A DNA stretch of 53,148 nt from Bacteroidota bacterium (GTDB taxonomy: Bacteria; Bacteroidota; Bacteroidia; Flavobacteriales_E; Vicingaceae): NCBI GenBank assembly GCA_016183805.1, contig JACPDX010000069.1, forward strand, positions 1 through 53,148, written 5' to 3'. The notes beneath the pieces are model-generated. The model worked only from the letters and a program-made list of their open reading frames with translations. It did not search any database and was not told the origin of the DNA. Shown here in pieces: positions 5,676-37,874 of this stretch. Positions within the stretch are counted from its first letter, which is position 1, and the number at the start of each line of letters is the position of its first letter. Both the position numbers and the translations under genes were made by a program.

Positions 5676-6089
5676 ATGAACAAGCTAATTATTATTTTAT
5701 CTGCTGTAAGCTTAATAGCATGTAAAAACGGTCAAAAATCAACAACCATGAAAAATGCATCTTCAACAGAAAAAACAGCAGAAACAGCAAACCCACAAGA
5801 TGTTGTTTTTGATATAATTGTTCAATTTATTAGTAAAGGAGAAGGAATAGCTCATCCAGTAAAAACAAAATTTGAAGAAGCTGTAGCTAAATTTAATAAA
5901 GACAACCATACTAATATTGAAGCAGATGTTCGTCATTGGGGTCGTGAAGGAGAAATAGACTTGAATTACAACCTAAAAAACTTATCAACAAAGCAAAAAA
6001 ATGCTTTTTTAAGTTTAGTTAAGGAAACTGTAGGAGATACCGACATGGTACACATTAAATATAATGAAAAAGGTGTTCAAAAAAGATAA
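5676..6089 (+). CDS. Small predicted lipoprotein of unknown function
   Basis: I do not recognise this 137-residue protein. It opens with a lipoprotein signal: a hydrophobic stretch (IIILSAVSLIAC) ends in the lipobox Cys at residue 16, so it should be anchored to a membrane by acylation. A low-complexity Ser/Thr/Glu linker (residues 20-42) leads to a small mixed alpha/beta domain (about 44-135). That domain contains VRHWGREGEIDLNYNL and is otherwise polar. It has its own ATG after a repeat-filled gap and is about 100 bp before pckA, so it may be transcribed alone. No catalytic motif is evident. Confidence 0.75.
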   Translation: MNKLIIILSAVSLIACKNGQKSTTMKNASSTEKTAETANPQDVVFDIIVQFISKGEGIAHPVKTKFEEAVAKFNKDNHTNIEADVRHWGREGEIDLNYNLKNLSTKQKNAFLSLVKETVGDTDMVHIKYNEKGVQKR

Positions 6090-6190: not shown

Positions 6191-7825
6191 ATGAATTCTA
6201 GAGTAGAGTCTATTGCCAAATCTTTAAATGGTTTAGGTATTAAAGGAATTAAAGAAATCATTTACAATCCTTCGTATGAAAAATTGTTTGAATATGAAAC
6301 TGACCCATCCCTAACCGGTTTTGAAGTTGCACAAAAAACAGAGTTAGGTGCTTTAAATGTGATGACAGGAGTGTTTACAGGCAGATCTCCAAAAGACAAA
6401 TATTTTGTATTGGATGATATAACTAAAGATACGATTTGGTGGAATTCCGATAAAGCAAAAAATGATAATAAACCTACCTCACAAGTAGTATGGAATGATT
6501 TAAAGAAAACGGTAGCCGATCAACTATCCGATAAAACTTTATTTGTTGTTGATGCGTATTGCGGAGCAAACGAAAACACCAGATTAAAAGTTCGTTTTAT
6601 TATGGAAGTAGCATGGCAAGCTCATTTTGTTAAAAATATGTTTATTAGACCAACTGAAGAAGAGTTGAAAAATTTTGGTGAACCAGATTTCATTGTTATG
6701 AATGGCTCTAAAACATCTAATAAAAAATGGCAAGAACATGGATTAAATTCTGAAAATTTTATTGTTTTTAATTTAACCGAAAAAATTCAGCTTATTGGTG
6801 GTTCTTGGTATGGTGGAGAGATGAAAAAAGGATTGTTCTCTTTGATGAACTATTATTTACCATTAAAAGGAATAGCTTCAATGCACTGCTCTGCTAATGT
6901 AGGTAAGGATGGCGATACTGCTATTTTCTTTGGCTTATCAGGAACCGGTAAAACTACTTTATCAACCGATTCAAGCAGACAATTAATTGGTGATGACGAA
7001 CATGGTTGGGATAATGATGGAGTTTTTAACTTTGAAGGCGGTTGTTATGCAAAAACAATAAATTTGGACAAGAGTTCCGAACCAGAAATATATGCTGCAA
7101 TAAGAAGAGATGCATTACTTGAAAACGTTACCGTTGATGCAAATGGTAAAATAGATTTTAGTGATAAATCAGTAACTGAAAACACTAGAGTTTCTTATCC
7201 TATCTATCATATTGACAATATTGTAACACCTGTTTCTAAAGCTGGTCCTGCTAAAAAAGTTATTTTCCTTTCCGCAGATGCATTTGGAACATTACCTCCG
7301 GTATCAAAACTTACTCCTGCTCAAACTAAATACCATTTTTTATCAGGTTTTACAGCAAAATTAGCGGGTACAGAACGAGGTGTTACTGAACCTACTCCAA
7401 CTTTCTCATCTTGTTTTGGTGCGGCATTTTTAAGCTTACACCCAACTCAATACGGTAAAGAATTGGTTAAAAAAATGGAAGCGAATAATGCTACAGCATA
7501 TCTAGTTAATACCGGTTGGAACGGTAGTGGTAAACGTATTTCTATTAAAGATACTAGAGGTATTATTAATGCTATTTTAGATGGCTCTATAGAAAAAGCT
7601 GAAACTAAAATAATTCCAATTTTCAACTTAGAAGTACCCACTTCATTACCCGGAGTTGATTCATCTATTTTAGATCCTAGAGACACTTATGTAAATAGAG
7701 AAGAATGGCATGAAAAAGCAAATAAATTAGCCGGTTTATTTGTTAAAAACTTCGAAAAATTTACCGACAATGAAGAAGGGAAAGCTTTAGTTGCTGCAGG
7801 ACCTTCTGTAAGTATTGAAGCATAA
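6191..7825 (+). CDS. pckA: Phosphoenolpyruvate carboxykinase (ATP)
   Basis: Converts oxaloacetate and ATP to phosphoenolpyruvate, CO2 and ADP in gluconeogenesis, in the cytoplasm. Its 544 residues are typical of the ATP-dependent enzyme. Family motifs are visible: the kinase P-loop GLSGTGKTT from residue 248, the preceding MHCSANVG, and the metal and substrate segment IGDDEHGWD just after the P-loop. The N-terminal TGRSPKDKY binds substrate. The gene is followed by a strong hairpin terminator at 7846-7877, so it is probably monocistronic. The ATG start is unambiguous because upstream sequence contains stops and a leader hairpin. Confidence 0.97.
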
Positions 7826-34458: not shown

Positions 34459-35340
34459 ATGAAAGAAGCATTTTTATACGGCAATTATGTGAAGGTGTTA
34501 AATGACAAATTTGCTAGACGGTTAGAGGATATTGAAGCTGAACATAACTTTGACTATGGTGACGAATTTGAAATTGCGGTTTGTGAAGTTCTAAGAAGTT
34601 TTCTTCCTCAAAAATTTGGGATCTGTAGAGGATTTGTAGTAGATAGTAATGGCAATACAGCAGGAGACGATATTATTATTTACGACCAAGAAAGATTTCC
34701 AACTTTAAAGCTAGTTGGTAGAAACGATTATGCTAGAAAGGAAAAAATTCCAATCGAAGCGGTTTATGCGTATATCGAAGCGAAACATAATATTGAAATT
34801 AGCGACGATCCTGATAAATGTGTATTGAGAAAGGCTATTTCGCAATGCTCTACCGTGAAGGCTTTGTGTTCTCAGCGGACAAAAATGCAACTATATCAGA
34901 ATGATCCGTATCTTTTGGAAACTCAAAGAAAAATACCTCCAATCGATTGGCTTCCGACTTATAGAAACCCTGTTCTTGGTATAATTATTTCCCGGCATGT
35001 CGGATATCAAGCAAAGAAGTTAACTAATGAAAAAGAAATTCATTCTTTACTCCATGATATCCCTATTGAAATGAACCCTAATTGTCCTGATTTAATTGTC
35101 GCAGGTCAACATAATTTGTTATGTTCGGCATATAATACTGGAACCGAAATCAAATCTACTCTTTTTATGCTCACAGAAAAAGAATATGGTTTTGACGTGT
35201 TAACTAGATTGAACCTAGCCTTTGGAATTGGACTTGCTCATTTATTTGCAGCTATGGACTGGGTAAGACTCGGGAGAATGCCTTGGTCAGACATATTAAA
35301 TGATGCAAAAAAAGACGACTACACTCCACAAAATCATTAA
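34459..35340 (+). CDS. DUF6602 protein with nuclease-like core
   Basis: A 293-residue cytoplasmic protein. I recognise DUF6602 from YGDEFEIAVCEVLRSFLPQKFGICRGFVVD (about 33-62) and the C-terminal FGIGLAHLFAAMDWVRL. Residues Glu36/Glu43 on a helix, Asp70-Asp71 in GDDIIIYD and Glu107-x-Lys109 in AYIEAK follow the order of a PD-(D/E)xK nuclease core. A metal-dependent nucleic acid cleaving role is possible but not shown. It is a lone gene bounded by inverted GTTGGCAGCA borders, with an attC-like hairpin behind it. Members of this family are patchily found in accessory regions. Confidence 0.75.
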   Translation: MKEAFLYGNYVKVLNDKFARRLEDIEAEHNFDYGDEFEIAVCEVLRSFLPQKFGICRGFVVDSNGNTAGDDIIIYDQERFPTLKLVGRNDYARKEKIPIEAVYAYIEAKHNIEISDDPDKCVLRKAISQCSTVKALCSQRTKMQLYQNDPYLLETQRKIPPIDWLPTYRNPVLGIIISRHVGYQAKKLTNEKEIHSLLHDIPIEMNPNCPDLIVAGQHNLLCSAYNTGTEIKSTLFMLTEKEYGFDVLTRLNLAFGIGLAHLFAAMDWVRLGRMPWSDILNDAKKDDYTPQNH

Positions 35341-35404: not shown

Positions 35405-35541
35405 TGCTGCCAACAGCGGCTAAAATCAATTGGGACTTTTGTGTTAATTTGAAATTTATTCTTTTAATTTACTTTGTGTTTGCGGTAAAGCTTTTGCTTT
35501 TAATTTTCCAACTGCTTCTAGCTGCAAACCGTTAACAAACA
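35405..35541 (+). repeat. Long imperfect hairpin with attC-like layout
   Basis: The gap after DUF6602 starts with TGCTGCCAAC (35405-35414). Its arms GCTAAAATCAATTGG (35419-35433) and CCAACTGCTTCTAGC (35508-35522) are complementary at 12 of 15 positions. The outer ends (CCAACAGCG and AAACCGTTAAC) pair partly. The gap lacks other features. It resembles integron cassette sites in general plan but not in exact consensus. Confidence 0.5.
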
Positions 35542-35546
35542 CAATA

Positions 35547-35708
35547 ATGAACAGGTATAAAGAAACATTTGAAACTTGGAATAAAGTTGCCTCACTATAC
35601 CAAAACAAGTTTATGGAATTAGACTTGTATAATAATACGTATGACTTTATTTGCAATTCAATTCCTAAAGAAAAAGCAAAATTATTGGAAATTAAGAATG
35701 AAGAATAG
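35547..35708 (+). pseudogene. 5' fragment of the SAM methyltransferase gene (partial duplicate)
   Basis: A 53-codon ORF whose first 49 codons copy the start of the methyltransferase gene at 37233. It breaks off at LLEI, just before the SAM-binding GCGPG loop, and ends after KNEE-stop. The 159-bp region 35535-35693 aligns without gaps to 37221-37379, with eight mismatches, of which some change amino acids. It is not a working enzyme. Confidence 0.9.
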
Positions 35709-35730: not shown

Positions 35731-35816
35731 TTGAATTATCGCTTATTTAGATGATATGTTGAATTATTGTTGATTTAAGCAATATTTTAAATTATTGCAT
35801 TTTTAAGCAATAATTT
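35731..35816 (+). promoter_or_regulatory. Cluster of ATTATTGC half-sites: putative operator of satD
   Basis: Half-sites occur at 35735-35742 (ATTATCGC), 35763-35770 (ATTATTGT), 35779-35786 (GCAATATT), 35791-35798 (ATTATTGC) and 35807-35814 (GCAATAAT). AAATTATTGC (35789-35798) and GCAATAATTT (35807-35816) are a perfect inverted repeat with an eight-base spacer. This pair sits between the -33 and -7 elements, a typical repressor position. Confidence 0.6.
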
Positions 35817-35826
35817 TTTAGCTTTG
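35795..35826 (+). promoter_or_regulatory. Promoter of satD-DUF3307
   Basis: TTG at 35795-35797 and TAGCTTTG at 35819-35826 are separated by 21 bases and match TTG/TAnnTTTG. The satD ATG is 24 bases after the -7 box. The spacer is occupied by the inverted repeat described as an operator. Confidence 0.65.
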
Positions 35827-35850: not shown

Positions 35851-36495
35851 ATGGTTGCAGTAATAAAAGGAGACATTGTCGCATCAAGAAAACTGACAGA
35901 TCAAGAAAAATGGTTGTCGCCCCTAAAAAACCTGTTGGCATCATGGGGTAATACACCACAGGACTGGGAGTTGGTATGGGGTGATTTTTTTCAAATAGAA
36001 ATTTCAGATCCGGAAGATGTGCTCAAAAAAGTTTTTGAAATAAAAGCATTGATTAAAAAAATTGAACCCATTGATGACCGCAAAAAAATAAGCACGATAG
36101 ATGTAAGAATGGCAATAGGTATAGGAGAAAAAACGTATACAGGCGAAAGAATATCAGAAAGCAATGGTCCGGCTTTTATCCATGCCGGGGATAAATTTGA
36201 TTTACTTAAAAAAGAAAATGTGAATATTGGTTTAAAGAGCCCTTGGCAAAACTTTGATGAGGAAATTAATTTGTACTTAAAATTAGCTGGAACCTTTATG
36301 GACAAATGGTCTGTTTCATCTGCCGAATTAATTGAAATTGTACTCAAAAAACCCCATACAACCCAAGAAGAAATTGGAAAAATTTTAGGTATAAAGCAAA
36401 GCGGTGTAAGTGGCAGATGGAATAGAGCCCATGCAGAGGAGATATTGGCTGTAGAAAAGATGTTCCGTAAAAAAATTAAAAACTTACTAGCATGA
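35851..36495 (+). CDS. SatD family protein: cyclase-like domain plus HTH
   Basis: A 214-residue cytoplasmic protein of the SatD family, named after satD of the streptococcal secretion and acid tolerance locus; function not established. The N-terminal domain (1-150) has three marks in the order of class III nucleotide cyclases: VIKGDIVAS (Asp8), ELVWGDFFQIEI (Asp45, then a helix) and VRMAIGIGE (Arg86). The two Asp are placed like the metal ligands; catalytic partners cannot be confirmed. The C-terminal 55 residues are an HTH (TTQEEIGKILGIKQSGVSGRWNRA). The stop overlaps the DUF3307 start (ATGA). Half-sites in its promoter suggest it controls itself. The cyclase link is my inference. Confidence 0.75.
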   Translation: MVAVIKGDIVASRKLTDQEKWLSPLKNLLASWGNTPQDWELVWGDFFQIEISDPEDVLKKVFEIKALIKKIEPIDDRKKISTIDVRMAIGIGEKTYTGERISESNGPAFIHAGDKFDLLKKENVNIGLKSPWQNFDEEINLYLKLAGTFMDKWSVSSAELIEIVLKKPHTTQEEIGKILGIKQSGVSGRWNRAHAEEILAVEKMFRKKIKNLLA

Positions 36496-37202
36496 TACTA
36501 TTGATAAAACTTATCTTAATCCATTTTATAGGAGATTTTGTACTGCAACCAAAATCGTGGGTAAAAGAAAAAGAAAATAAAAAAGCTACATCTCCAAAAC
36601 TATATCTACATGTTTTTATACATGGGTTGTTGGTATTGTTAATAGTATGGAACTTGAATTATTGGCTCTTAGCGTTAATGCTTACACTTTCTCACTTGAT
36701 TATTGATGTGTTAAAACTATACGCACAAAAAGAAAAAAATAAAACCACATGGTTTTTGATAGATCAAGCATTACACCTCATCAGTATTTTGGTTGTATGG
36801 TTCTTATGGTTTAATCCGGTTATAAATTTAACTGAATGGGCAATAAATCCAAGCATTTGGATTTATACAACTGCAATACTTTTTATAACAATCGTATCAG
36901 GGATAATGATTCAGGTATTAATGTCTAATTGGTCGAAAACATTAAATGACAGCAATGATGAATCTTTAAATAATGCTGGTAAGTGCATTGGAATGTTAGA
37001 ACGATTATTTGTTTTCACTTTTGTGGTTTCTGGGAATTGGGAAGCTATTGGATTCTTATTAGCTGCCAAATCAGTATTTCGTTTTGGAGATTTAAAAGAA
37101 TCGAAAGACAGAAAATTAACAGAATATATTTTGATTGGAACATTATCAAGCTTTGGTATAGCTATAGCAACCGGAATGATTGTTTTAAAATTAATGAATT
37201 AG
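36492..37202 (+). CDS. DUF3307 multi-pass membrane protein
   Basis: A 236-residue integral membrane protein with about six hydrophobic helices and no known function. Four His/Asp pairs with helical i,i+4 spacing lie in or beside the first helices: His11-Asp15 (HFIGD), His40-His44 (HVFIH), His68-Asp72 (HLIID) and Asp91-His95 (DQALH). Such clusters could bind a metal within the membrane, as in YdjM/DUF457-type proteins. It is translationally coupled to satD and is its regular partner in other bacteria. It ends 30 bases before the methyltransferase start. Confidence 0.8.
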   Translation: MILLIKLILIHFIGDFVLQPKSWVKEKENKKATSPKLYLHVFIHGLLVLLIVWNLNYWLLALMLTLSHLIIDVLKLYAQKEKNKTTWFLIDQALHLISILVVWFLWFNPVINLTEWAINPSIWIYTTAILFITIVSGIMIQVLMSNWSKTLNDSNDESLNNAGKCIGMLERLFVFTFVVSGNWEAIGFLLAAKSVFRFGDLKESKDRKLTEYILIGTLSSFGIAIATGMIVLKLMN

Positions 37203-37220: not shown

Positions 37221-37379
37221 ACAACCACAATAATGGACAGGTATAAAGAAACATTTGAAACCTGGAATAAAATTGCCTCACTATACCAAGACAAGTTTAT
37301 GGAATTAGACTTGTATAATAACACATATGATTTTATTTGCAATTCAATTCCTAAAGAAAAAGCAAAATTATTGGAAATT
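37221..37379 (+). repeat. 159-bp direct repeat (second copy) at the methyltransferase 5' end
   Basis: Gap-free match to 35535-35693 with eight differences. The two copies bracket the satD-DUF3307 pair. The similarity begins 12 bases before the ATG and ends inside the gene. Confidence 0.9.
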
Positions 37380-37874
37380 GGTTGTGGTCCCGGAAACATT
37401 ACAAAATATCTTTTATCGCAACGACCCGATTTTGACATTTACGGAATTGACATTGCCCCAAATATGATAGCACTTGCAAAGAAAAACAACCCCACTGCAA
37501 GTTTTGCTGTAATGGACAGTCGACTAATCGATACACTTGAAACAAAATATGATGGTATAGTGTGTGGTTTTTGTTTGTCTTATTTATCGCAAACCGATAG
37601 TTCAAAACTTATTGCCGACTGTTATCATTTATTGAATGATAATGGGCTACTTTACATAAGTTTTGTTGAAGGCGACCCGAGTAAGTCCGGCTTTCAGGTT
37701 GGTAGCAGTGGCGACAGAAGTTACTTTTATTTCCATGATTTAAACGAACTAAAACAGCAATTTATAGATAATAAATTTGACGAACTAAAAATAGTTAAGG
37801 TGGAGTATAAAAAATCAGCATCCGAAACAGACATACATACCGTATTAACAGCAAAGAAAAAAGCGGTTGAATAA
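37233..37874 (+). CDS. Class I SAM-dependent methyltransferase
   Basis: A 213-residue cytoplasmic methyltransferase. SAM-binding motif I is LLEIGCGPGNITKYL (about residues 46-60). The acidic residue of motif II is in IYGIDIAPNMI, with MDSRLI next, and GIVCGFCLSYLS is motif IV-like. The substrate cannot be told; small-molecule or lipid methylation is more likely than DNA because there is no DPPY or target-recognition region. Its first 49 codons are also present as a broken copy upstream of satD. Confidence 0.88.
   Translation: MDRYKETFETWNKIASLYQDKFMELDLYNNTYDFICNSIPKEKAKLLEIGCGPGNITKYLLSQRPDFDIYGIDIAPNMIALAKKNNPTASFAVMDSRLIDTLETKYDGIVCGFCLSYLSQTDSSKLIADCYHLLNDNGLLYISFVEGDPSKSGFQVGSSGDRSYFYFHDLNELKQQFIDNKFDELKIVKVEYKKSASETDIHTVLTAKKKAVE

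Follow-up and report, generated by a model that had tools for sequence, protein, structure and literature searches.

The satD-DUF3307 gene pair probably forms a two-gene signalling module, in which an autoregulated, nucleotide-binding regulator acts with a membrane output. We analysed the pair in a window of 53,148 nucleotides, contig JACPDX010000069.1 of a Bacteroidota bacterium of the Vicingaceae (assembly GCA_016183805.1). The proposal was derived from sequence, i.e. from the predicted fold of SatD, the conservation of two of its aspartates, the pairing of the two genes, an array of dyads in front of satD and the covariation of the half-sites with SatD. The evenly spaced 28-bp array is a new finding of this analysis. 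The pair is present in about a quarter of the sampled Bacteroidota genomes and the function of the family is so far unassigned. The array and its recognition code make the first step of the module directly testable, and concrete hypotheses on what SatD senses and restrains follow from the pairing, from the conservation of the metal site and from the essentiality of satD in Streptococcus pyogenes. The family would thus offer a testable signal-sensing switch, encoded by a pair found across bacteria and archaea.

In the window, satD (35851-36495, + strand) encodes 214 amino acids, with a palm domain at residues ~1-150 that carries Asp8 and Asp45, followed by a C-terminal helix-turn-helix (HTH, residues 155-192). 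Downstream on the + strand, the partner gene (36492-37202) encodes a polytopic membrane protein of 236 amino acids. The two genes share the bases ATGA at 36492-36495, which bears out the coupling reported in an earlier note on the same DNA. SatD matched the Pfam family PF16264 just above the curated cut-off (E 3.7e-7, 30.4 bits against 29); its relatives scored higher, and divergent SatD classes also matched above the cut-off. The family takes its name from the 'secretion and acid tolerance' of Streptococcus mutans, and the link with acid tolerance comes from that species only. The literature searched held no description of the fold, the operator or the partner of SatD. The membrane protein matched DUF3307 (PF11750, E 9.5e-33) over residues 3-117, that is, its N-terminal half only. 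The six helices counted in the earlier note are about right by hydropathy, which gave 6-7 hydrophobic segments; the structural model has at least 8 long helices.

A 28-bp dyad array precedes satD

Three putative operator dyads lie before satD on the + strand, each with half-sites parted by an N8 spacer. Dyad 3 (35792-35813), TTATTGC-ATTTTTAA-GCAATAA, is perfect. Dyad 2 (35764-35785) reads TTATTGT-TGATTTAA-GCAATAT, and dyad 1 (35736-35757), TTATCGC-TTATTTAG-ATGATAT, is the most diverged of the three and stands in the same 28-bp register as the others. On the 3′ side of dyad 3, the sequence TAGCTTTG (35819-35826, + strand) was placed by inspection; from the consensus TAnnTTTG, we take it to be a −7 promoter element of the Bacteroidota type. 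The motif TTATTGC-N8-GCAATAA has a single exact match in the whole 3.47-Mb genome, that of dyad 3, and on this ground a role of SatD as a global regulator was rejected. We also rejected the array as a transcribed repeat (type III antitoxin RNA) because it lies 5′ of the −7 element or covers it.

Tandem dyads of 20-22 bp with a period of 28 bp, placed before satD and against the promoter, were found in many homologues. Arrays of two to four dyads recur not only before the satD genes of Bacteroidota but also before those of Vibrio lentus (TTAGCC) and of the archaeon (GTTCGC), and similar dyads were seen by inspection before the pairs with a shortened partner described below. Blind scoring of the period in 90 satD upstream regions gave a mean of 3.81 at 28 bp, 2.83 at 29 bp and 2.04-2.26 at the other periods between 22 and 35 bp; 53 of the 90 regions beat all 20 shuffles, and 37 do not beat every shuffle.

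The half-site varies between loci and is nearly constant inside one locus. Its covariation with SatD was ranked automatically over all variable residues of the protein, in 51 distinct combinations and with a procedure that partly controls for shared ancestry. The best predictor was residue 183 for base −9, residue 185 for base −7 and residue 188 for bases −6 and −5, all three of them at the recognition helix. The ranking for bases −4 and −3, which belong to the spacer, is not led by any HTH residue. A hand-curated set agrees with these assignments. At residue 185, Ser is mostly accompanied by TATC and Gly or Ala by TATT; at residue 188, Arg or Lys pairs with A or C at base 5, and Gly, Glu or Ser mostly with G. 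Arg183 accompanies TGTTAC in place of TATTAC. Among close relatives of the window, Gly188 is found with TATTGC (L002, L003, L005, L006), whereas Arg188 is found with TATTAC or TATTCC (L004, L009, L010). Such changes occur separately in Bacteroidota genomes farther from the window (L046, L050, L054-L056, L061). These data provide strong sequence evidence that SatD binds its own array. From the 28-bp array and the recognition-helix covariation, SatD is almost certainly a dedicated autoregulator, in support of the earlier view that it controls its own promoter; it is probably a repressor rather than an activator, because the array overlaps the promoter.

The predicted fold and the putative metal site of SatD

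The AlphaFold2 model of SatD, built with 46 homologues, has a pLDDT of 95.8 and a pTM of 0.92; the structure models used chromosomal homologues only, plasmid SatDs being left out. The topology is β-α-β-β-α-β-α-β, a linking helix, and then three helices (155-166, 172-179 and 183-192) that form the C-terminal HTH already expected from the sequence. VIA-align matched the model to GTP cyclohydrolase III (2qv6, Z 9.6, 2.9 Å over 109 residues), the GGDEF protein DosC (Z 9.4), the class III cyclase Rv1625c (7yz9, Z 9.3, 2.7 Å over 122 residues) and the palm of the Cas10 protein Cmr2 (Z 9.1); OptS was not among the matches listed. Since these scores are tied (Z 9.1-9.6), the model places the N-terminal part of SatD among the palm domains of the superfamily of class III cyclases, GGDEF, GTP cyclohydrolase III and Cas10, and not specifically among the class III cyclases. 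The equal fit of several palm families also means that the fold does not single out the ligand. A diverse SatD profile matched the class III cyclase Ma1120 (E 3e-4), with Asp8 and Asp45 aligned to the aspartates of its TDIEES and GDGF motifs. A narrower SatD profile found no match for the palm part among PDB sequences; comparing profiles directly with a single Pycsar cyclase and a single GGDEF protein gave no match either.

The residues singled out beforehand are all present at the positions then given, in the motifs G7-D8-I, G44-D45-x-F-Q48 and D84-V-R86. Asp8, Asp45 and Arg86 are invariant over the 46 SatD homologues (36-85% identity), and among 91 distinct SatDs they are kept in 88, 90 and 81 sequences, respectively. 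Of the three SatDs without Asp8, one (L135) likely reflects a gene-start error, and the other two (L084 and L085) are exactly those that have no DUF3307 partner. The numbers are small and the direction is clear: in these sequences the metal site appears to be lost along with the partner. One of these orphans, L085, has lost Asp8 yet has kept its dyad array, so DNA binding seems independent of the metal site.

The other class III catalytic positions were mapped by motif, not by coordinates. Most of the 91 SatDs have Ile, Val, Thr or His in place of the transition-state Asn, the transition-state Arg position holds Glu in 45/91 and Arg in 23/91, and the specificity Lys is absent, its place being taken by Ile, Leu or Val. 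Because the metal aspartates are conserved but the class III Asn is missing, SatD likely binds nucleotide and metal at Asp8/Asp45, and cyclase activity is a possibility. The class III-like reading of SatD therefore stood for the cyclase-superfamily fold, with class III cyclases among the tied top matches, and for the conservation of both aspartates; it did not stand for class III identity, as GGDEF, GTP cyclohydrolase III and Cas10 fit equally and the catalytic Asn is mostly replaced.

SatD shares with class III cyclases (Ma1120, Rv1625c, and PycC of Pycsar) the palm fold, the two metal aspartates and a VRxxIxxGE-like strand, but the transition-state Asn and the specificity Lys are absent, the Arg position is variable and a C-terminal HTH is present. 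The cyclase-like proteins of DUF2652 from Bacteroidetes, uncharacterised and described as single-domain, also have two metal aspartates; they belong, however, to another Pfam family and retain the specificity pair and often His-Arg (PMC4886424). Many SatDs carry a hairpin resembling that of GGDEF domains, and PucR-type regulators such as MabR likewise join a palm-type domain to an HTH-type effector domain in one regulator. SatD differs from these in that a single short chain runs from palm to HTH, and in its 28-bp operator array and its membrane partner. In Panoptes, which is defined by an mCpol domain with an S-2TM beta, CARF or SAVED effector, OptS (mCpol) and OptE also form a two-gene operon of a two-Asp palm protein and a membrane protein, with a restraint logic that satD-DUF3307 may share. 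In contrast to that system, SatD has an HTH, DUF3307 is without an S-2TM beta domain, and the chromosomal pairs showed no defence enrichment.

The membrane partner

Of 31 loci, drawn from Bacteroidota, Ignavibacteria, Chlorobiota, Vibrio, Salinivibrio, Pseudoalteromonas, enterobacterial plasmids, Fusobacterium and the archaeon Haloplanus, 30 have satD directly 5′ of the DUF3307 gene and in the same orientation. The remaining locus (L017, 6001-6600), in Proteiniphilum sp. X52, is a decayed remnant of the pair at the place where P. acetatigenes (L003) carries it intact. The same arrangement was found in 29/29 further genome loci. Among 395 Bacteroidota genomes, SatD is present in 113, DUF3307 in 109 and both in 103. 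The membrane partner put forward for SatD is thus a fixed one, which accompanies it in 103 of the 109 genomes with DUF3307.

The ten SatD-only genomes comprise seven with a mini partner, one whose locus runs into the end of its contig, and two true orphans. The mini partners (L087-L094), of 105-115 amino acids, correspond to the C-terminal half of the DUF3307 protein only (GxLER...GALKIGTR). This half, which lies outside Pfam PF11750, may be the functional core. The invariant residues of the N-terminal half are rich in His and Asp. Conversely, six genomes have DUF3307 without SatD, and in three of them (L078, L079, L083) the protein keeps 21/24 checked invariant residues, which indicates that DUF3307 is not always harmful alone. 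In these three related genomes the lone gene adjoins thiamine-biosynthesis-like genes. A fold search with DUF3307 found no PDB relative; its only rows were weak and channel-like (Z < 8), and we took them as chance matches. In Aerococcus tenax (L098, 4917-7709), a distant SatD-like protein is followed by a DUF975 membrane protein in place of DUF3307, which may represent an exchange of partners in Bacillota.

Proposed mechanism, competing readings and genomic context

We propose that SatD is a one-component regulator whose palm domain, through its two-Asp metal site, most likely binds a nucleotide with Mg2+ and may turn it over. The C-terminal HTH would bind, as a dimer, the 28-bp-spaced dyads abutting or overlapping the satD promoter, and would thereby repress its own operon. 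An altered nucleotide, or an altered product of SatD, would then change the repression and/or act directly on the co-translated DUF3307 protein, so that the signal would reach the membrane, where DUF3307 would be the output of the module. In a more specific version, SatD would also hold DUF3307 in check. This is the most interesting sub-case, and a rather doubtful one; if true, it would add to Panoptes a second inhibitory nucleotide-signalling architecture, outside defence islands. Its most elaborate form, which we consider unlikely, would make SatD a palm nucleotide synthase and an autorepressor in one chain, its nucleotide keeping DUF3307 inactive, as a Panoptes-like inhibitory switch with an unrelated effector, present in bacteria and archaea and carried on a mobile 1.5-kb cassette. 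A hint that SatD may restrain a partner comes from a pangenome study of S. pyogenes, in which satD alone among the accessory genes is reported to fall into the highest essentiality class, being essential in all strains tested by transposon sequencing and present in 178/249 genomes (PMC11323703); DUF3307 is not mentioned in that study. An essential yet accessory gene resembles one that restrains something encoded beside it, as OptS restrains OptE in Panoptes (PMC12657218, PMC12657230).

Such restraint could be that of a Panoptes-like or toxin-antitoxin-like module, in which DUF3307 is kept harmless by a nucleotide that SatD makes or holds at all times, and is released when either SatD or the nucleotide is lost. 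The regulator gene standing first, the ATGA overlap, the autoregulatory array, the patchy distribution (4/60 relatives), the small plasmids of 3.8 and 4.4 kb on which the pair is the main cargo, the apparent cassette insertion, the S. pyogenes data and the working precedent of OptS-OptE are all in line with this reading. Nevertheless, some DUF3307 genes without satD are nearly intact, which speaks against unconditional toxicity, the pair is stably placed among housekeeping genes such as pyrD, purC and gltX in several lineages, and OptE has a soluble nucleotide-binding domain whereas none is apparent in DUF3307; we regard the reading as possible, with limited confidence. A comparable reserve applies to SatD as an active cyclase, or a synthase of cyclic dinucleotides, with a product that gates DUF3307. 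Both metal aspartates are conserved in a palm fold and the GDEFQ hairpin of many SatDs resembles GGDEF, but the class III Asn is missing, the specificity Lys position is aliphatic (Ile, Leu or Val), and palm fold and metal aspartates alone do not show cyclisation. SatD might instead be a non-catalytic nucleotide-sensing repressor, with DUF3307 transporting a related metabolite or hydrolysing it at the membrane. This we also hold tentatively: the housekeeping neighbourhoods including pyrD and purC, the His/Asp-rich invariant residues of DUF3307 and the PucR-type precedent of a GGDEF-like domain with an effector-HTH (MabR, PMC11617747) speak for it, while the pyrD and purC neighbours are each limited to a few lineages and the mini partners are wholly without the His/Asp half.

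The last reading, a dedicated anti-phage system of the Pycsar type as evoked in the earlier note, is very unlikely. Scattered links do exist: in four of 16 close loci the pair lies between hsdS-like and hsdR-like genes in type I RM-like operons (assigned by inspection), one copy on a Sphingomonas plasmid adjoins a Pycsar cyclase and its effector, and a NucC-like nuclease gene stands beside the pair in the window. However, the 76 immediate neighbours of 38 chromosomal pairs showed no defence enrichment by PADLOC, with 5 families against 21 at matched control positions, and the models matched were RmuC and other generic ones; no PADLOC model matches SatD or DUF3307. A defence island was rejected on these counts, as was a phage origin, since neither phage records nor four scans of viral contigs yielded a match. 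The genes beside the chromosomal pairs are HMG-CoA-lyase-like, purC, pyrD and gltX. Some copies may therefore serve in defence, a role not supported for the pair in general, and the autoregulated module with a membrane output remains our preferred reading.

In the window, the pair and its array are flanked by a repeat of 159 bp. The left copy (35535-35693, + strand) duplicates the start of the methyltransferase gene that lies downstream and is 95% identical to the right copy (37221-37379, + strand), which holds the 5′ end of the intact gene (37233-37874). A similar pattern occurs in L007, where the copy in front of the array comes from the 5′ end of an hsdR-like gene downstream (55 bp, 87%; about 5747-5801 and 7387-7441). 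By their sequence, these repeats look like the insertion of a ~1.5-kb cassette with duplication of the target; no transposase lies inside the cassette. The repeat was absent from the other thirteen loci checked, including L002 and L004 of the same context, which makes it a minority pattern or a fading one. Relatives carrying the methyltransferase showed no synteny that would reveal an empty insertion site, and no near match to the pEC34A cassette was found in E. coli complete genomes. The two insertions, although unrelated, have AATAGTATCAC in common at their left junctions. Just 5′ of the cassette in the window, a gene for a DUF6602 protein (34459-35340, + strand) matches PADLOC PD-(D/E)xK and NucC models (E 3.5e-23 to 6e-16) and is apparently a lone NucC-like nuclease gene.
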